This document shows positions 8,023 to 10,493 of a DNA stretch of 10,493 bases, one piece after another. The DNA comes from Longimicrobium sp. (lineage in GTDB: Bacteria; Gemmatimonadota; Gemmatimonadetes; Longimicrobiales; Longimicrobiaceae). Location of the stretch: positions 3,728 to 14,220 of the forward strand of contig JAUJMI010000042.1 of NCBI GenBank assembly GCA_030446945.1, read 5' to 3'. The stretch's first letter is position 1; each line of letters starts with the position of its first letter. A program made the position numbers and the translations under genes. Under the pieces are notes generated by a model. That model did not search any database. It saw only the letters and a program-made list of their open reading frames with translations, and had not been told where the DNA came from.

Positions 8023-8658
8023 TCAGCGCATCACGCGCACCTGCACGTTGCTGTTGTCCGGGGCGAAGTCGGCGATCTGGCTGTTCTGACCGACGCCCGT
8101 ACGCGGCCACAGGTTCACGGTGAAGCGCTCCTGGCTGAAACCCCTCGAAGGCAGGAGGCTGGCCGGAACGGTCGCCCGCAGCGTGTTCCCCGTGAAGGTG
8201 ACATTGCCCGCGGGCAGGTTCTGCGGGGTGCCGCCGGGGGTCAGGTCGCGCACGGTGCTGGTTCCACCCGGCTGCAGAACCACCACCACGTCGAAGTGCA
8301 CCCGGGTGGCGAGGTCGCCGAAGCGCGCGATTCCCTGCCCGCGGTCCACGCCCCACACGAAGAGCGCGCCGGGGGTGGTTCCGATCGCACCCGCGGACGT
8401 GCTCTCGAAGACGAAGTTGGTGCCGTCGAAGGTCACCTCCGCCCGCGCGACGTCCAGGTCCGGGTTCCTGGGGCCCGTGAAGGTGGGCAGGAAGTCGTTC
8501 CGTGAATCGCTGATCGCGGACGGCCGGCTGGCCCCGGTCACGTCATCGTCGCCGTCGCAGGCCTGCAGGCCGAACGCCGCCGACAAAACCAGCGCCGCCG
8601 AACGAGCGGCCGCGCGCCGGGTGCGGCCCGCGGGCAGGAACGTACGCGTCCTCTTCAT
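8023..8658 (-). CDS. Probable lipoprotein with a secreted beta-sandwich-like domain, function unknown (211 aa)
   Basis: ATG at 8658 is chosen because AAGGAG (8666-8671) lies 7 nt upstream; the open frame extends farther but without such a site. The N-terminus is Arg-rich, then hydrophobic (SAALVLSAAFGLQA), then Cys34 in a lipobox-like LQAC, followed by an acidic DGDDD. This is consistent with a signal-peptidase-II lipoprotein; Gln at -2 is slightly unusual. The mature part (about 55-211) is rich in short beta strands: DLDVARAEVTFDGTNFVFES, GTTPGALFVWGVDRG, FDVVVVLQPGGTSTV, NVTFTGNTLRATVP, FTVNLWPRTG and a terminal IADFAPDNSNVQVRV. This pattern resembles an uncharacterised extracellular domain also seen in PEP-CTERM-type secreted proteins. 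No enzyme motif is visible. The gene is alone, ends at the hairpin 7969-7997 and is divergent from the small-gene cluster to its right. Confidence 0.8.
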   Translation of the reverse strand: MKRTRTFLPAGRTRRAAARSAALVLSAAFGLQACDGDDDVTGASRPSAISDSRNDFLPTFTGPRNPDLDVARAEVTFDGTNFVFESTSAGAIGTTPGALFVWGVDRGQGIARFGDLATRVHFDVVVVLQPGGTSTVRDLTPGGTPQNLPAGNVTFTGNTLRATVPASLLPSRGFSQERFTVNLWPRTGVGQNSQIADFAPDNSNVQVRVMR

Positions 8659-8770
8659 CGTCGATCTCCTTCGGGTAGGGTGCACGACCTTCCGGGGCAG
8701 AGTGCGCCCGGGGGTCCGTCCTGGTACGGCCGAGCGCACACGGCCTGCCGGTGCCGTTTCACGCTTCCCA

Positions 8771-8793
8771 GCGACCCCCGCCGTCGGGGTCGC
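8771..8793. repeat. 8-bp inverted repeat just upstream of the promoter at 8802
   Basis: GCGACCCC (8771-8778) and GGGGTCGC (8786-8793) are perfect complements with a 7-nt spacer. The dyad ends 8 bases before the -35 box. It could be an operator for the rightward genes, or a leader hairpin in the leftward lipoprotein transcript if that transcript starts to its right. Confidence 0.4.
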
Positions 8794-8801
8794 ACGGGGC
8801 G

Positions 8802-8829
8802 TTGACACGCCGAACTTTTAAGCTATTCT
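8802..8829 (+). promoter_or_regulatory. Sigma-70-like promoter for the small-protein cluster
   Basis: TTGACA (8802-8807) is a perfect -35 box, followed after 16 nt by TATTCT (8824-8829) as the -10. The surrounding stretch CGAACTTTTAAGCTATTCTAAA is strikingly AT-rich for this window. A start near 8836 would give a leader of about 60 nt before the ATG at 8896. Confidence 0.6.
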
Positions 8830-8895: not shown

Positions 8896-9078
8896 ATGTC
8901 ACGGCCGGCTCCGGATCAACTCCGGCCCGCGCGCGGCCGCATCGATCTGCTTTGGGTGATCGTGCTCGGGATGGTCCTGGTGATGCTGACGGGCACCCTG
9001 TTAGCCGCGGTCGACGGAGTCGTCCGGGGCCAGGAACGGAGCTTGGCGGAGCGGAATCCTCGGCTCCACTCCGGGTGA
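8896..9078 (+). CDS. Small single-pass membrane protein (60 aa)
   Basis: ATG at 8896 follows GCGGAGG (8886-8892) with a short spacer and lies ~66 bases after a good promoter. The 60-residue product has a basic N-terminus (RPARGR), one clear transmembrane helix (about residues 17-39, IDLLWVIVLGMVLVMLTGTL and following), and a short charged tail (RGQERSLAERNPR). By the positive-inside rule the N-terminus is probably cytoplasmic. No family is recognised. It is first in a rightward run of small genes ending in an HMA-domain protein, separated from the next by 114 bases. Its role is unknown; helper or scaffold of a membrane complex is conjecture. Confidence 0.65.
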   Translation: MSRPAPDQLRPARGRIDLLWVIVLGMVLVMLTGTLLAAVDGVVRGQERSLAERNPRLHSG

Positions 9079-9192
9079 GCCGTCGCCGTTCGCGCCGCCG
9101 CTTCGCCGCCGCGCGTGAACGGCACGGGAATCGCGGCGCGCGGCGCTCCGCAAGGGGCGGGCGCTCGATATTCTCTCTCTGGAGGTCCGGGT

Positions 9193-9624
9193 ATGGCGAG
9201 CGAAGGTTCGGAGAAGGAAGGGGAGGAAAAGAAGGAGCGCCGGGGCGGGATGGGCAGCTCGGCCAAGATGGCGGCCACCGCCATCGTAACCGCCACCGTC
9301 CTTTCACCCCAGCTTCGCTCGATTCTGCGCCAGGGCGCGGTCCGCGGGCTGGCGGGGGTGCTCGTGCTCGGTGACGCCCTTGCCTCTTTCGCGCGCGGAG
9401 TCGGCCGTGGGATCCAGGACGCCGGCGGGGCGGAGCCCGCGTCGTCGGCCGCCGCGGATGCCGCGGTTGCGGCCGCGCAGGAGGCGGCCCGGACCGCCCA
9501 GGAGGCGGCGCTCGCGGCACAGGCGGCGGCGCAGGCCGCGCACGAGGCCTCGTCGACACCGCGCCGCAAGCCCGGGCGGCCACGCCCCCCTGCCCCGGAC
9601 GGAGGTGGCGACGCCAATGGATGA
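9193..9624 (+). CDS. Small protein with a hydrophobic segment, Ala-rich helix and AT-hook-like tail (143 aa)
   Basis: ATG at 9193 follows GGAGG (9181-9185) with a 7-nt gap, preferred over an upstream GTG at 9115. Layout: charged N-terminus (1-20, E/K/R-rich); a hydrophobic and Gly-rich stretch (about 26-75, including AVRGLAGVLVLGDALASFAR); a long Ala/Gln/Glu helix (84-119, with AAAQEAART and QEAALAAQAAAQ repeats); then a basic, Pro-rich end, RRKPGRPRPP (124-133), that resembles an AT-hook core. The hydrophobic-then-Ala/Glu-helix layout recalls PacL (DUF1490) helpers of mycobacterial metal-efflux P-type ATPases and DUF5132-like partners; phasins share the Ala-rich tail. Its 3' end overlaps the next gene by 8 bases (ATGGATGA), implying translational coupling. 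The family assignment is inference only. Confidence 0.7.
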   Translation: MASEGSEKEGEEKKERRGGMGSSAKMAATAIVTATVLSPQLRSILRQGAVRGLAGVLVLGDALASFARGVGRGIQDAGGAEPASSAAADAAVAAAQEAARTAQEAALAAQAAAQAAHEASSTPRRKPGRPRPPAPDGGGDANG

Positions 9625-9937
9625 GACGCCCGCCGCGACGCAGCGCGCAGAGGAGATCGTGGGACGGATGGGTGAGTGGCTCGGCGGGCTCGTGCTCGGC
9701 ACCCTGCGGGGTGTGGAGCGCGCAGCCACGGGCACGCCGCCGGAATCGCCCCTGGATACCCCGGCCGCTCCGGCGGCGGTCACGCGCGCCGAACAGGTGC
9801 TGGACGGCGCGGGGGAGCGGCTGGGCCACTTCGCGGCACTCGCGGGCCAGCGTCTCCGCACGGCGGCCGCGCTGGCCCGGGAGGAGGCGGAGGACCTGTG
9901 GGCCGAGGCGCAGCACCTCCGCGACCAGGGGCGGTGA
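9617..9937 (+). CDS. Small protein with Gly-rich hydrophobic motif and charged helical tail (106 aa)
   Basis: ATG at 9617 overlaps the TGA of the preceding gene (9622-9624), so expression is probably coupled; GGAGG at 9601-9605 is 11 nt upstream. Residues 12-36 (EEIVGRMGEWLGGLVLGTLR and onward GVERA) contain a short hydrophobic motif that resembles the VRGLAGVLVLGDAL...RGVGRG stretch of the preceding protein (common pattern LxGxLVLG...RGV). A Pro/Ala linker (about 40-55) leads to an amphipathic helix (56-103) ending LAREEAEDLWAEAQHLRDQ, rich in Ala and Glu. The hydrophobic motif is short for a full transmembrane span, so membrane association is possible rather than certain. The gene lies directly upstream of, and in the same reading frame as, the HMA-domain gene. 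No named family is recognised. Confidence 0.7.
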   Translation: MDETPAATQRAEEIVGRMGEWLGGLVLGTLRGVERAATGTPPESPLDTPAAPAAVTRAEQVLDGAGERLGHFAALAGQRLRTAAALAREEAEDLWAEAQHLRDQGR

Positions 9938-9982
9938 ACCCTCCCATGCCGGAGCGGCTCCCCTTCGCCAGGCGCCGGTGAG

Positions 9983-10493
9983 ATGATCGCCGTCGCGCCG
10001 CGCCCGCGTGTCGTCCGTTCCCTGCCGGGGCGCCTTCGGATCCACCTTCCCGCCTGGCCGGGGACCAACGGCAGCGCCCTGGAAGCACACCTGCGCCGGA
10101 TGAAGGGGGTGCGGCGGGTGCAGGCAAACCCGCTCACGCGCAACGTGCTGGTGGAGTTCGATGCCGGAGCGACCGACGAGCCCACCCTCCTGGGCTCGCT
10201 ACGGCAGCTCCCGCTGGACGTGCTCGCGGGGCCGCGGGAGGAGCCCGTCGCGCCCGCCGCTCCCCGCCGGGTACGGATCACGGTACCGAGGCTGCGGGAG
10301 GACCCGGCGCTGGCCGCGCGCGTCGTGGAGCAGCTCCAGCGGCACCCGGGGGTACGCGCCACCGCCAGCACCCTCACGGGCCGGGTGCTCGTGGAGCTCG
10401 CCGAAGGCGACGCCACCGCGGCCGAGCGCCGCCGCGACCTGGCGCGCCTGTCCTCGCCCACGCCCGAGCACGGCGCGCCGCGAGACGAGCGGC
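9983..10493 (+). CDS. Protein with two tandem HMA-like repeats lacking CxxC; probable N-terminus of a metal P-type ATPase (3' end outside window)
   Basis: The frame from ATG 9983 is open to the last base (170 codons), with no internal stop. Two repeats of a ferredoxin-like beta-alpha-beta unit are visible. Repeat 1 covers residues 15-66: GRLRIHLPAW, then a helix LEAHLRRMKGVRRVQANPLT, then NVLVEFD. Repeat 2 covers 94-146: RRVRITVPRL, then AARVVEQLQRHPGV, then STLTGRVLVELAEG. Both keep the GV..V..... LT..VLVE pattern of heavy-metal-associated domains, but neither has the CxxC metal site; the first 170 residues contain no cysteine. Such degenerate HMA domains (often labelled HMA2) are known as stand-alone proteins and at the N-terminus of some cation P-type ATPases, e.g. 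the mycobacterial CtpI-like group. The ATPase core (DKTG, CPx or related) would lie beyond the window. No good ribosome site precedes the ATG (GGTGAG abuts it), so reinitiation after the upstream gene is plausible. Confidence 0.75.
   Translation, partial: MIAVAPRPRVVRSLPGRLRIHLPAWPGTNGSALEAHLRRMKGVRRVQANPLTRNVLVEFDAGATDEPTLLGSLRQLPLDVLAGPREEPVAPAAPRRVRITVPRLREDPALAARVVEQLQRHPGVRATASTLTGRVLVELAEGDATAAERRRDLARLSSPTPEHGAPRDER

Follow-up and report, generated by a model that had tools for sequence, protein, structure and literature searches.

A conserved pair of small genes upstream of a double-length P-type ATPase in Longimicrobium and relatives in three phyla: a candidate divalent-metal efflux module

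According to two papers, DUF1490 (PacL) proteins are exclusive to Actinobacteria, are encoded with P1B pumps, and combine glycines in a transmembrane (TM) segment with Glu/Ala repeats and a metal-binding end (PMC9374683, PMC13043812). The Glu/Ala region of PacL is reported to contact the N-terminal domain of CtpC-type pumps (PMC13043812), and DUF6110 is a PacL-related set found beside P1B6 pumps (PMC9374683). FUPA 24 (TC 3.A.3.24), the family of CtpH and CtpI, is described as being of double length, with a large N-terminal extension, functional motifs in the C-terminal half, and, in CtpI, PEGL in TM4 (PMC3573892); a 2023 review calls CtpH and CtpI uncharacterised and states that they might form a unique family (PMC10654040). 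Here, we describe a stretch of 10,493 nucleotides from Longimicrobium sp. (Gemmatimonadota; contig JAUJMI010000042.1), hereafter the window, which ends with two small genes (helper 1 and helper 2) and the start of a P-type ATPase gene. An earlier note had read this end of the window as a candidate membrane metal-transport locus with three helper-like proteins. By comparison with its relatives, the window locus is the 5' part of a module consisting of helper 1, helper 2, and a double-length P-type ATPase, and we give about an even chance to the reading that this module exports a divalent metal (Mn2+ or Ca2+), the two small proteins being dedicated accessories of the pump. No published description of the two helpers was found in the partly accessible literature searched, which left subscription journals and preprints outside it.

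Helper 1, helper 2, and the ATPase start are close-packed on the plus strand (Table 1). The ATG of helper 2 overlaps the stop codon of helper 1 (ATGGATGA), and the ATG of the ATPase at 9983 lies 45 nt 3' of helper 2 and opens a frame that runs to the contig end. The window spans positions 3728-14220 of a contig that ends at 14220; because the contig stops where the window does, the core of the ATPase is not readable in the window. We take the module as these three genes, since they are kept together in relatives and a 60-aa open reading frame (ORF) 5' of them has no homologue there. The earlier expectation that the small genes are conserved beside the HMA protein therefore holds for the two helpers and not for the 60-aa ORF.

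Both helpers were found directly upstream of the ATPase and co-directional with it in 28 of 31 nonredundant loci from Gemmatimonadota, Actinomycetota, and Chloroflexota. This count covers loci with at least 700 nt of upstream sequence and relies on helper profiles that were seeded with the window and its closest relatives (training rows: window, L013, L014, and, for helper 1 only, L015) and then iterated. Dropped beforehand were L095 (287 nt upstream only), duplicate views of one locus, the helper 1 of genome G004 (ATPase beyond the contig), and L090, L091, and L103 (weak matches of other architecture without helpers); L031 was counted despite its broken ATPase. With the uniterated profiles, helper 1 was recovered in these 28 loci, training rows included, at E-values between 1.7e-49 and 4.9e-10; helper 2 gave 3.6e-57 to 7.3e-8, the one exception being L022 (0.016). 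The helper 2 stop precedes the ATPase start by 3-212 nt (some ATPase starts are approximate). The same profiles returned nothing under E 0.1 from 49 control loci (259 kb). A complete copy is present in a cultivated organism, Thermomicrobium roseum DSM 5159 (TRD_RS11375, TRD_RS11370, and TRD_RS11365, annotated as "hypothetical," "hypothetical," and "HAD-IC family P-type ATPase"), the helpers of which were recovered by profiles built without them (E 1.3e-6 and 7e-6 without iteration, 5e-16 and 8e-11 with it).

This conservation bears on the possibility that the small genes happen to be inherited next to the ATPase and act in some unrelated capacity in the membrane or envelope. In favour of it, both helpers are small and rich in Ala, and three ATPase loci (L084, L086, and L104) lack them; two of these, L084 and L104, are second ATPase copies in genomes (G646 and G402) with a complete module elsewhere. 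However, 10 of the 11 strong helper 1 matches in whole-genome searches (E<=1e-10) adjoin the ATPase, the eleventh (G004) being at a contig edge; three genomes with two ATPase copies (G403, G154, and G974) have helper pairs at both; and gene order and spacing persist across three phyla, whereas the surrounding genes vary. We consider a bystander role very unlikely. In G154, the second module copy retains both helpers and an ATPase reduced to a 356-codon frame (L031:8208-9275).

Within 61 related genomes, the 170-aa ATPase start and helper 1 each match four genomes, the window's own included (the 170-aa match in G003 is weak, E 7.6e-4). The same-family genomes G010 and G013 carry all three genes in the order of the window. 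In the same-genus G004, helper 1 (86% identical) lies at the edge of a contig and still has beside it the LysR gene (85% identical) that neighbours it in the window. The genome_contigs scan yielded eight related loci, including Rubrobacter, Thermomicrobiales, Chloroflexia, and Solirubrobacter records. Genomes with an ATPase profile match at E<=1e-20 numbered at least 15 of 251 in Chloroflexota, at least 10 of 346 in Actinomycetota, and at least 2 of 395 in Gemmatimonadota; these tallies include seed genomes (G402, G403, and G405 among them) as well as three matches of other architecture (L090, L091, and L103), and are lower bounds, the best two to four candidates per genome having been scored. 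Presence counts for the module in draft genomes are probably underestimates, because several contigs end inside it (i.e., the window, L013, L015, L039, L040, and L115). The patchy presence in Gemmatimonadota may reflect transfer. A plasmid tblastn search with helper 1 of L124 gave no match. In a tree of 27 N-terminal halves of the ATPase, clustering by phylum exceeded that of shuffled labels (4 changes, minimum 2), the forks between phyla were mostly unresolved, and the three Gemmatimonadota rows grouped weakly.

The 170 residues of the ATPase in the window match HMA_2 (PF19991; Pfam E 1.6e-12), and in the model of a close relative the order of strands and helices fits two HMA folds. Two HMA-like domains are present at the N terminus of most of these ATPases and one in L014 and L030. 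CxxC is missing from the first 200 codons in all 28 open frames, that of the window included (in L118, about 100 of the 200 codons lie ahead of the protein), as the earlier note had described for the window's HMA-like repeats. Its further proposal, that the frame at 9983 begins a P-type ATPase, is borne out in relatives; the window's contig ends before the core. In G010, the ATPase is one frame, cut by the contig end after 1339 codons, and its P-type core lies in the second half (Pfam and NCBIfam). The open frames of the 16 relatives with an uninterrupted copy span 1559-1716 codons (~1,600 residues), with DKTGT at codon 1041-1176 in a subset of them.

The two halves of this protein differ in kind. 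The N-terminal half resembles Zn/Cu P1B ATPases, in that its profile matches ATP7B (E 2.2e-23) and its model (mean pLDDT 83) matches ZntA structures and has the same fold; the rows of the VIA-align comparison cover model residues 179-745 and thus no HMA domains. DKTGT, TGE, CPC, HP, and GDGxND are kept in none of 26 aligned N-terminal halves and are present in four CtpC-like references, and we infer that this half is a pseudo-ATPase (i.e., a degenerate P1B pump). The C-terminal half aligns with the Listeria Ca2+-ATPase LMCA1 (E 1.2e-106 over ~700 residues). Among sequences that reach the respective places, DKTGT, TGE, and PEG are present in 20/20, and 17/17 retain GDGxND together with N and E in TM5 and N and (T/S)D in TM6; the conserved TM4, TM5, and TM6 residues correspond to those with which SERCA binds Ca2+. 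For the truncated L013 protein, the Ca2+-ATPases TIGR01522 and TIGR01116 are the best NCBIfam models, at scores below the equivalog cut-offs (e.g., 179.7 versus 798.3 bits for TIGR01522). Judged by these motifs, the C-terminal half is an intact P2A-type (Ca2+-type) ATPase. The CtpC-like P1B pump suggested in the earlier note is replaced, in the relatives, by a degenerate P1B half joined to an intact P2A half. No helper-bearing locus showed an active P1B pump, which led us to reject an ordinary pump of CtpC type downstream of the helpers.

Among described pumps, LMCA1/PMR1-type P2A Ca2+ (Mn2+) ATPases share the catalytic motifs and ion-site residues of the C-terminal half. LMCA1, however, is of single length (880 residues), is without HMA domains or a pseudo-P1B half, and, in the alignment with the C-terminal half, has GNLGA in TM5 where this ATPase family has GNLGE. 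The build of the ATPase matches FUPA 24, a likeness drawn from the published description and not from CtpH and CtpI sequences. It extends to the double length of the relatives, the motifs in the C-terminal half, the large N-terminal segment, and PEGL in TM4; what differs is that two conserved helper genes lie upstream and that the N-terminal half is here identified as a degenerate, HMA-bearing P1B ATPase. In 21 genomes of a DUF1490-bearing family, the ATPase profile found CtpC-like and other P-type ATPases, none of them known as CtpH or CtpI. Further ATPases without the helpers or the pseudo-P1B half were also encountered. L024:7935-10973 (Chromatiales) encodes a 1012-aa protein in which a single HMA-like domain is fused straight to a P2A-type ATPase with no pseudo-P1B half. 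More distant double-length ATPases without helpers are encoded in L131:3895-8490 (Chloroflexota; 1532 codons) and, as a fragment, in L132 (Actinomycetota); the latter two may be closer to the CtpH/CtpI branch.

Helper 1 has a conserved core, SPqlR..lRqGAVrGLAGVL..GDA, which is Gly-rich and marginally hydrophobic and is followed by an Ala/Glu-rich helix; its membrane location can only be presumed, because its hydropathy (1.53) is marginal for a membrane helix. Its model (mean pLDDT 71) has helices at residues 22-37, 39-76, and 85-120, with high confidence in the last helix only, and a fold search with this low-confidence model gave no match at E<=10. Helper 2 is less hydrophobic (1.08) and ends in a conserved acidic helix, REEAED.WAEAQ..R. 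A Pfam scan of the two window proteins found no family at E<=1. The earlier note had seen two proteins that each pair a hydrophobic motif with an Ala/Glu helix; the hydrophobic stretches proved marginal in helper 1 and weaker in helper 2.

In Rubrobacter-like Actinomycetota, an E3_binding (peripheral subunit-binding) domain (PF02817) is present at the C terminus of helper 2 in all four proteins scanned (L124:9348-9737, L127:5841-6221, L099:3884-4279, and L038:6390-6887; E 9e-12 to 1e-9), and helper 2 of L097, L098, L101, and L102 looks similar by eye. T. roseum has an lpdA gene that ends 3.3 kb ahead of helper 1; its product, dihydrolipoyl dehydrogenase, usually serves as E3.

The arrangement recalls the effluxosome of PacL with CtpC, CtpG, or CtpV, in which a pump with an HMA-type N terminus is likewise preceded by the gene for a small protein that joins glycines in a hydrophobic segment to a Glu/Ala region. 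In contrast, the present module has two small proteins where PacL is one, no DUF1490 match, no His-rich end in the window's proteins, and a pump of P2A type with a degenerate P1B half, and it occurs outside Actinobacteria too. DUF1490 (PF07371) was not matched by the two helpers of the window or of T. roseum (E<=1), by the four helpers of G010 and G013 (E<=0.5), or by nine other helpers (E<=1). The DUF1490 proteins examined end in His-rich motifs, whereas none is present in the window proteins (helper 1 ends in DGGGDANG and helper 2 in LRDQGR). In the DUF1490-bearing family, some DUF1490 genes adjoin CtpC-like pumps. Direct membership in PacL/DUF1490 was rejected on the results of the Pfam and profile-profile comparisons. 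The earlier suggestion of a PacL-like layout with perhaps separate ancestry agrees with these results and with the profile-profile comparisons, in which helper 1 matched nothing and helper 2 gave a faint, short match.

In those comparisons (hhalign), PacL linked to DUF6110, as expected (E 1.1e-5 and 3.8e-5), and helper 1, despite its GAVxGLAG and Ala/Glu helix, showed no relation to PacL or DUF6110. Helper 2 matched the combined PacL and DUF6110 profile at E 0.0012 (probability 20%; score 22.1 versus a maximum of 13.2 in 40 column shuffles) and a four-sequence DUF6110-type profile at E 0.0011 (probability 20%). Pairs of DUF6110 and heavy-metal ATPase genes on Deinococcus plasmids have the same gene order, and the last helix of helper 2 (AREEAEDxWAEA) resembles that of DUF6110 (ARaEvDDIvAEA), although the similarity is sub-threshold, spans ~12-50 columns, and concerns a pump of another class. 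Under one alternative explanation, the helpers are true diverged members of PacL/DUF6110, produced by the splitting of an ancestral protein, so that the effluxosome family would have spread beyond Actinobacteria. The location of the genes just before a pump whose N terminus is of HMA type, the Gly-rich hydrophobic segment with an Ala/Glu helix, and the in-register alignment of the final helix of helper 2 would all fit, as would weak matches of helper 2 to DUF6110 (PF19605; best in L127, E 0.2; 12.2 bits, cut-off 26) and DUF5132 (L087, E 0.23) and the retrieval from the 49 control loci, by the iterated helper 2 profile, of only the DUF6110-type L043 (E 0.12) and L044 (E 0.76). However, every one of these matches lies below curated thresholds, helper 2 of the window has no Pfam match, helper 1 (the expected carrier of the membrane segment) matches nothing, the His-rich motif is missing from the window proteins, and the pump belongs to another class. 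We regard this alternative as unlikely, and the kinship of the helper 2 helix with PacL/DUF6110 as a faint lead, not a proof.

To consider which metal is moved, we surveyed the neighbourhoods of 22 module loci, several of which are cut by contig ends (neighbours picked by eye among ORFs of at least 80 codons; 10 neighbour genes, then 2 more, scanned with Pfam). Transition-metal genes occurred near the module in 5 of the 22 loci, in two phyla. These neighbours include MntR/DtxR-type Fe/Mn-dependent repressors in L040, L127, and L129 (best NCBIfam model MntR NF047407, below its cut-off) and, in L124, a TroA/MntC-like binding protein, an ABC ATPase, and two ABC-3 permeases, which form an uptake operon that ends 246 nt before helper 1. 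ZIP genes lie downstream of the ATPase in L123 and L124, and a CNNM/CorC gene is present on the opposite strand in L020. Because of the metal-gene neighbours and the P2A-type cation site, the substrate is most likely Mn2+, with Ca2+ second. Zn2+ may be a further candidate, since a zinc model gives the best score for the binding protein of L124. Export is the direction that we infer, given that P2A pumps in general export.

A pump for Ca2+ or another alkaline-earth ion, with the nearby Mn/Zn genes being coincidental, is on the unlikely side in our estimate. The nearest solved relative of the C-terminal half is LMCA1, the best models for the L013 protein are Ca2+-ATPases, and TM5 has both N and E, which we take to be the pattern of two-site Ca2+ pumps at the SERCA positions; the transition-metal regulator and transporter genes in two phyla argue the other way. 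Mn2+ and Ca2+ are not separable by sequence, because Mn2+ is also a substrate of PMR1/SPCA-class Ca2+ pumps; PDB titles include SPCA1a in the E1-Mn state.

Under the favoured reading, in which the module is a divalent-metal efflux pump with two accessory proteins, the C-terminal half would export a divalent cation, with Mn2+ the likeliest and Ca2+ the second choice, and the degenerate P1B half with its HMA domains would serve as a regulatory or docking platform and not as a second pump. Helper 1 would reside at or in the membrane and cluster or stabilise the pump, the acidic helix of helper 2 would dock on the HMA/pseudo-P1B half, and the pair would work like a PacL spread over two proteins. 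Several points weigh against this picture. The window holds the first 170 residues of the ATPase, and the rest, sought in the window's own genome (86% complete), was on no contig, the sole other match there being a weak one to another P-type ATPase. In the N-terminal halves, the Asp of DKTGT is still there in 21/26 (KTGT is gone in 26/26) and a TGD-like stretch survives in some, so that the loss of activity is a prediction. The membrane segment of helper 1 is marginal by hydropathy and falls in a low-confidence part of the model, and helper 2 barely exceeds the shuffles against DUF6110 alone (22.0; shuffle maximum, 19.7) and against PacL alone (18.7; 18.2). Four of the five loci with recognised transition-metal neighbours are from Actinomycetota, and the window showed no such neighbour; the best model for the L124 binding protein is the zinc model AztC, and the listed NCBIfam scores of seven neighbours are all below curated cut-offs (for the ABC ATPase, best 25 of 189). 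To these are added the ATPase loci without helpers (L084, L086, and L104); helper-pump interaction, location, and transport are all predictions.

A broader proposal, rather unlikely as a whole, is that FUPA 24-type pumps outside mycobacteria are multi-protein machines in three phyla, in which a live P2A pump for Mn2+ export is permanently fused to a dead P1B pump as a metal-sensing or docking platform and served by helper 1 in the membrane and by helper 2, an HMA-binding helix of PacL/DUF6110 stock. If true, it would represent a second, split-scaffold kind of metal effluxosome, and if helper 2 shares the PacL helix, scaffolding by small Glu/Ala proteins would be wider than the DUF1490/DUF6110 set. 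Our comparisons identify the probable nature of the N-terminal half (a degenerate P1B ATPase with HMA domains) for a family built like CtpH/CtpI, provide two conserved putative partner genes for a double-length ATPase, and point to Mn2+ as the first substrate to consider.

The 60-aa ORF 5' of helper 1 has a strong hydrophobic stretch (mean hydropathy of 2.57 over 17 residues) and, like the other three ORFs, a coding-type G+C distribution over codon positions. It had been put forward as a third helper, a role that finds no support here: it has no homologue in any other locus compared, including those of the same-genus G004 and the same-family G010 and G013, so that there are two conserved helpers, not three, and the ORF probably lies outside the module. 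One TTGACA-16-TATTCT site is present in the window upstream of the cluster, versus a mean of 0.0 in shuffles. Of the four co-directional genes earlier placed behind one promoter, three packed genes and one consensus promoter match remain, the 60-aa ORF not being conserved.

Table 1. Features of the module start and its upstream region, in window positions
Feature	Position	Strand	Description
Sigma-70-like match TTGACA-16-TATTCT	8802-8829	+	Consensus match only; 5' of the cluster
60-aa hydrophobic ORF	8896-9078	+	5' of helper 1; no homologue
Helper 1	9193-9624	+	143-aa ORF; homologues adjoin the ATPase in relatives
Helper 2	9617-9937	+	106-aa ORF; acidic C-terminal helix
Double-length P-type ATPase, 5' end	9983-10492	+	First 170 aa; HMA-like domain pair, no CxxC

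A search for known RNA families around the module, in the window and five loci, gave only tRNAs in L127. A lipoprotein-like protein without a Pfam match adjoins the module in the window (8023-8808, minus strand); its homologue in G013 (L014:11293-12099, minus strand; 50% identical) lies 1.2 kb from the module, and the orientation of the gene relative to the module differs between the two. Downstream of the module, DUF4331 proteins are encoded in L128:2457-4022 (Actinomycetota) and L020:11416-13095 (Thermomicrobiales), each followed by a TPR-like protein, as judged by eye. Upstream of it, a Rieske-type 2Fe-2S protein and a membrane-like protein of 163-167 aa are encoded in both G010 and G013 (L013:4800-5807 and L014:12721-13759).

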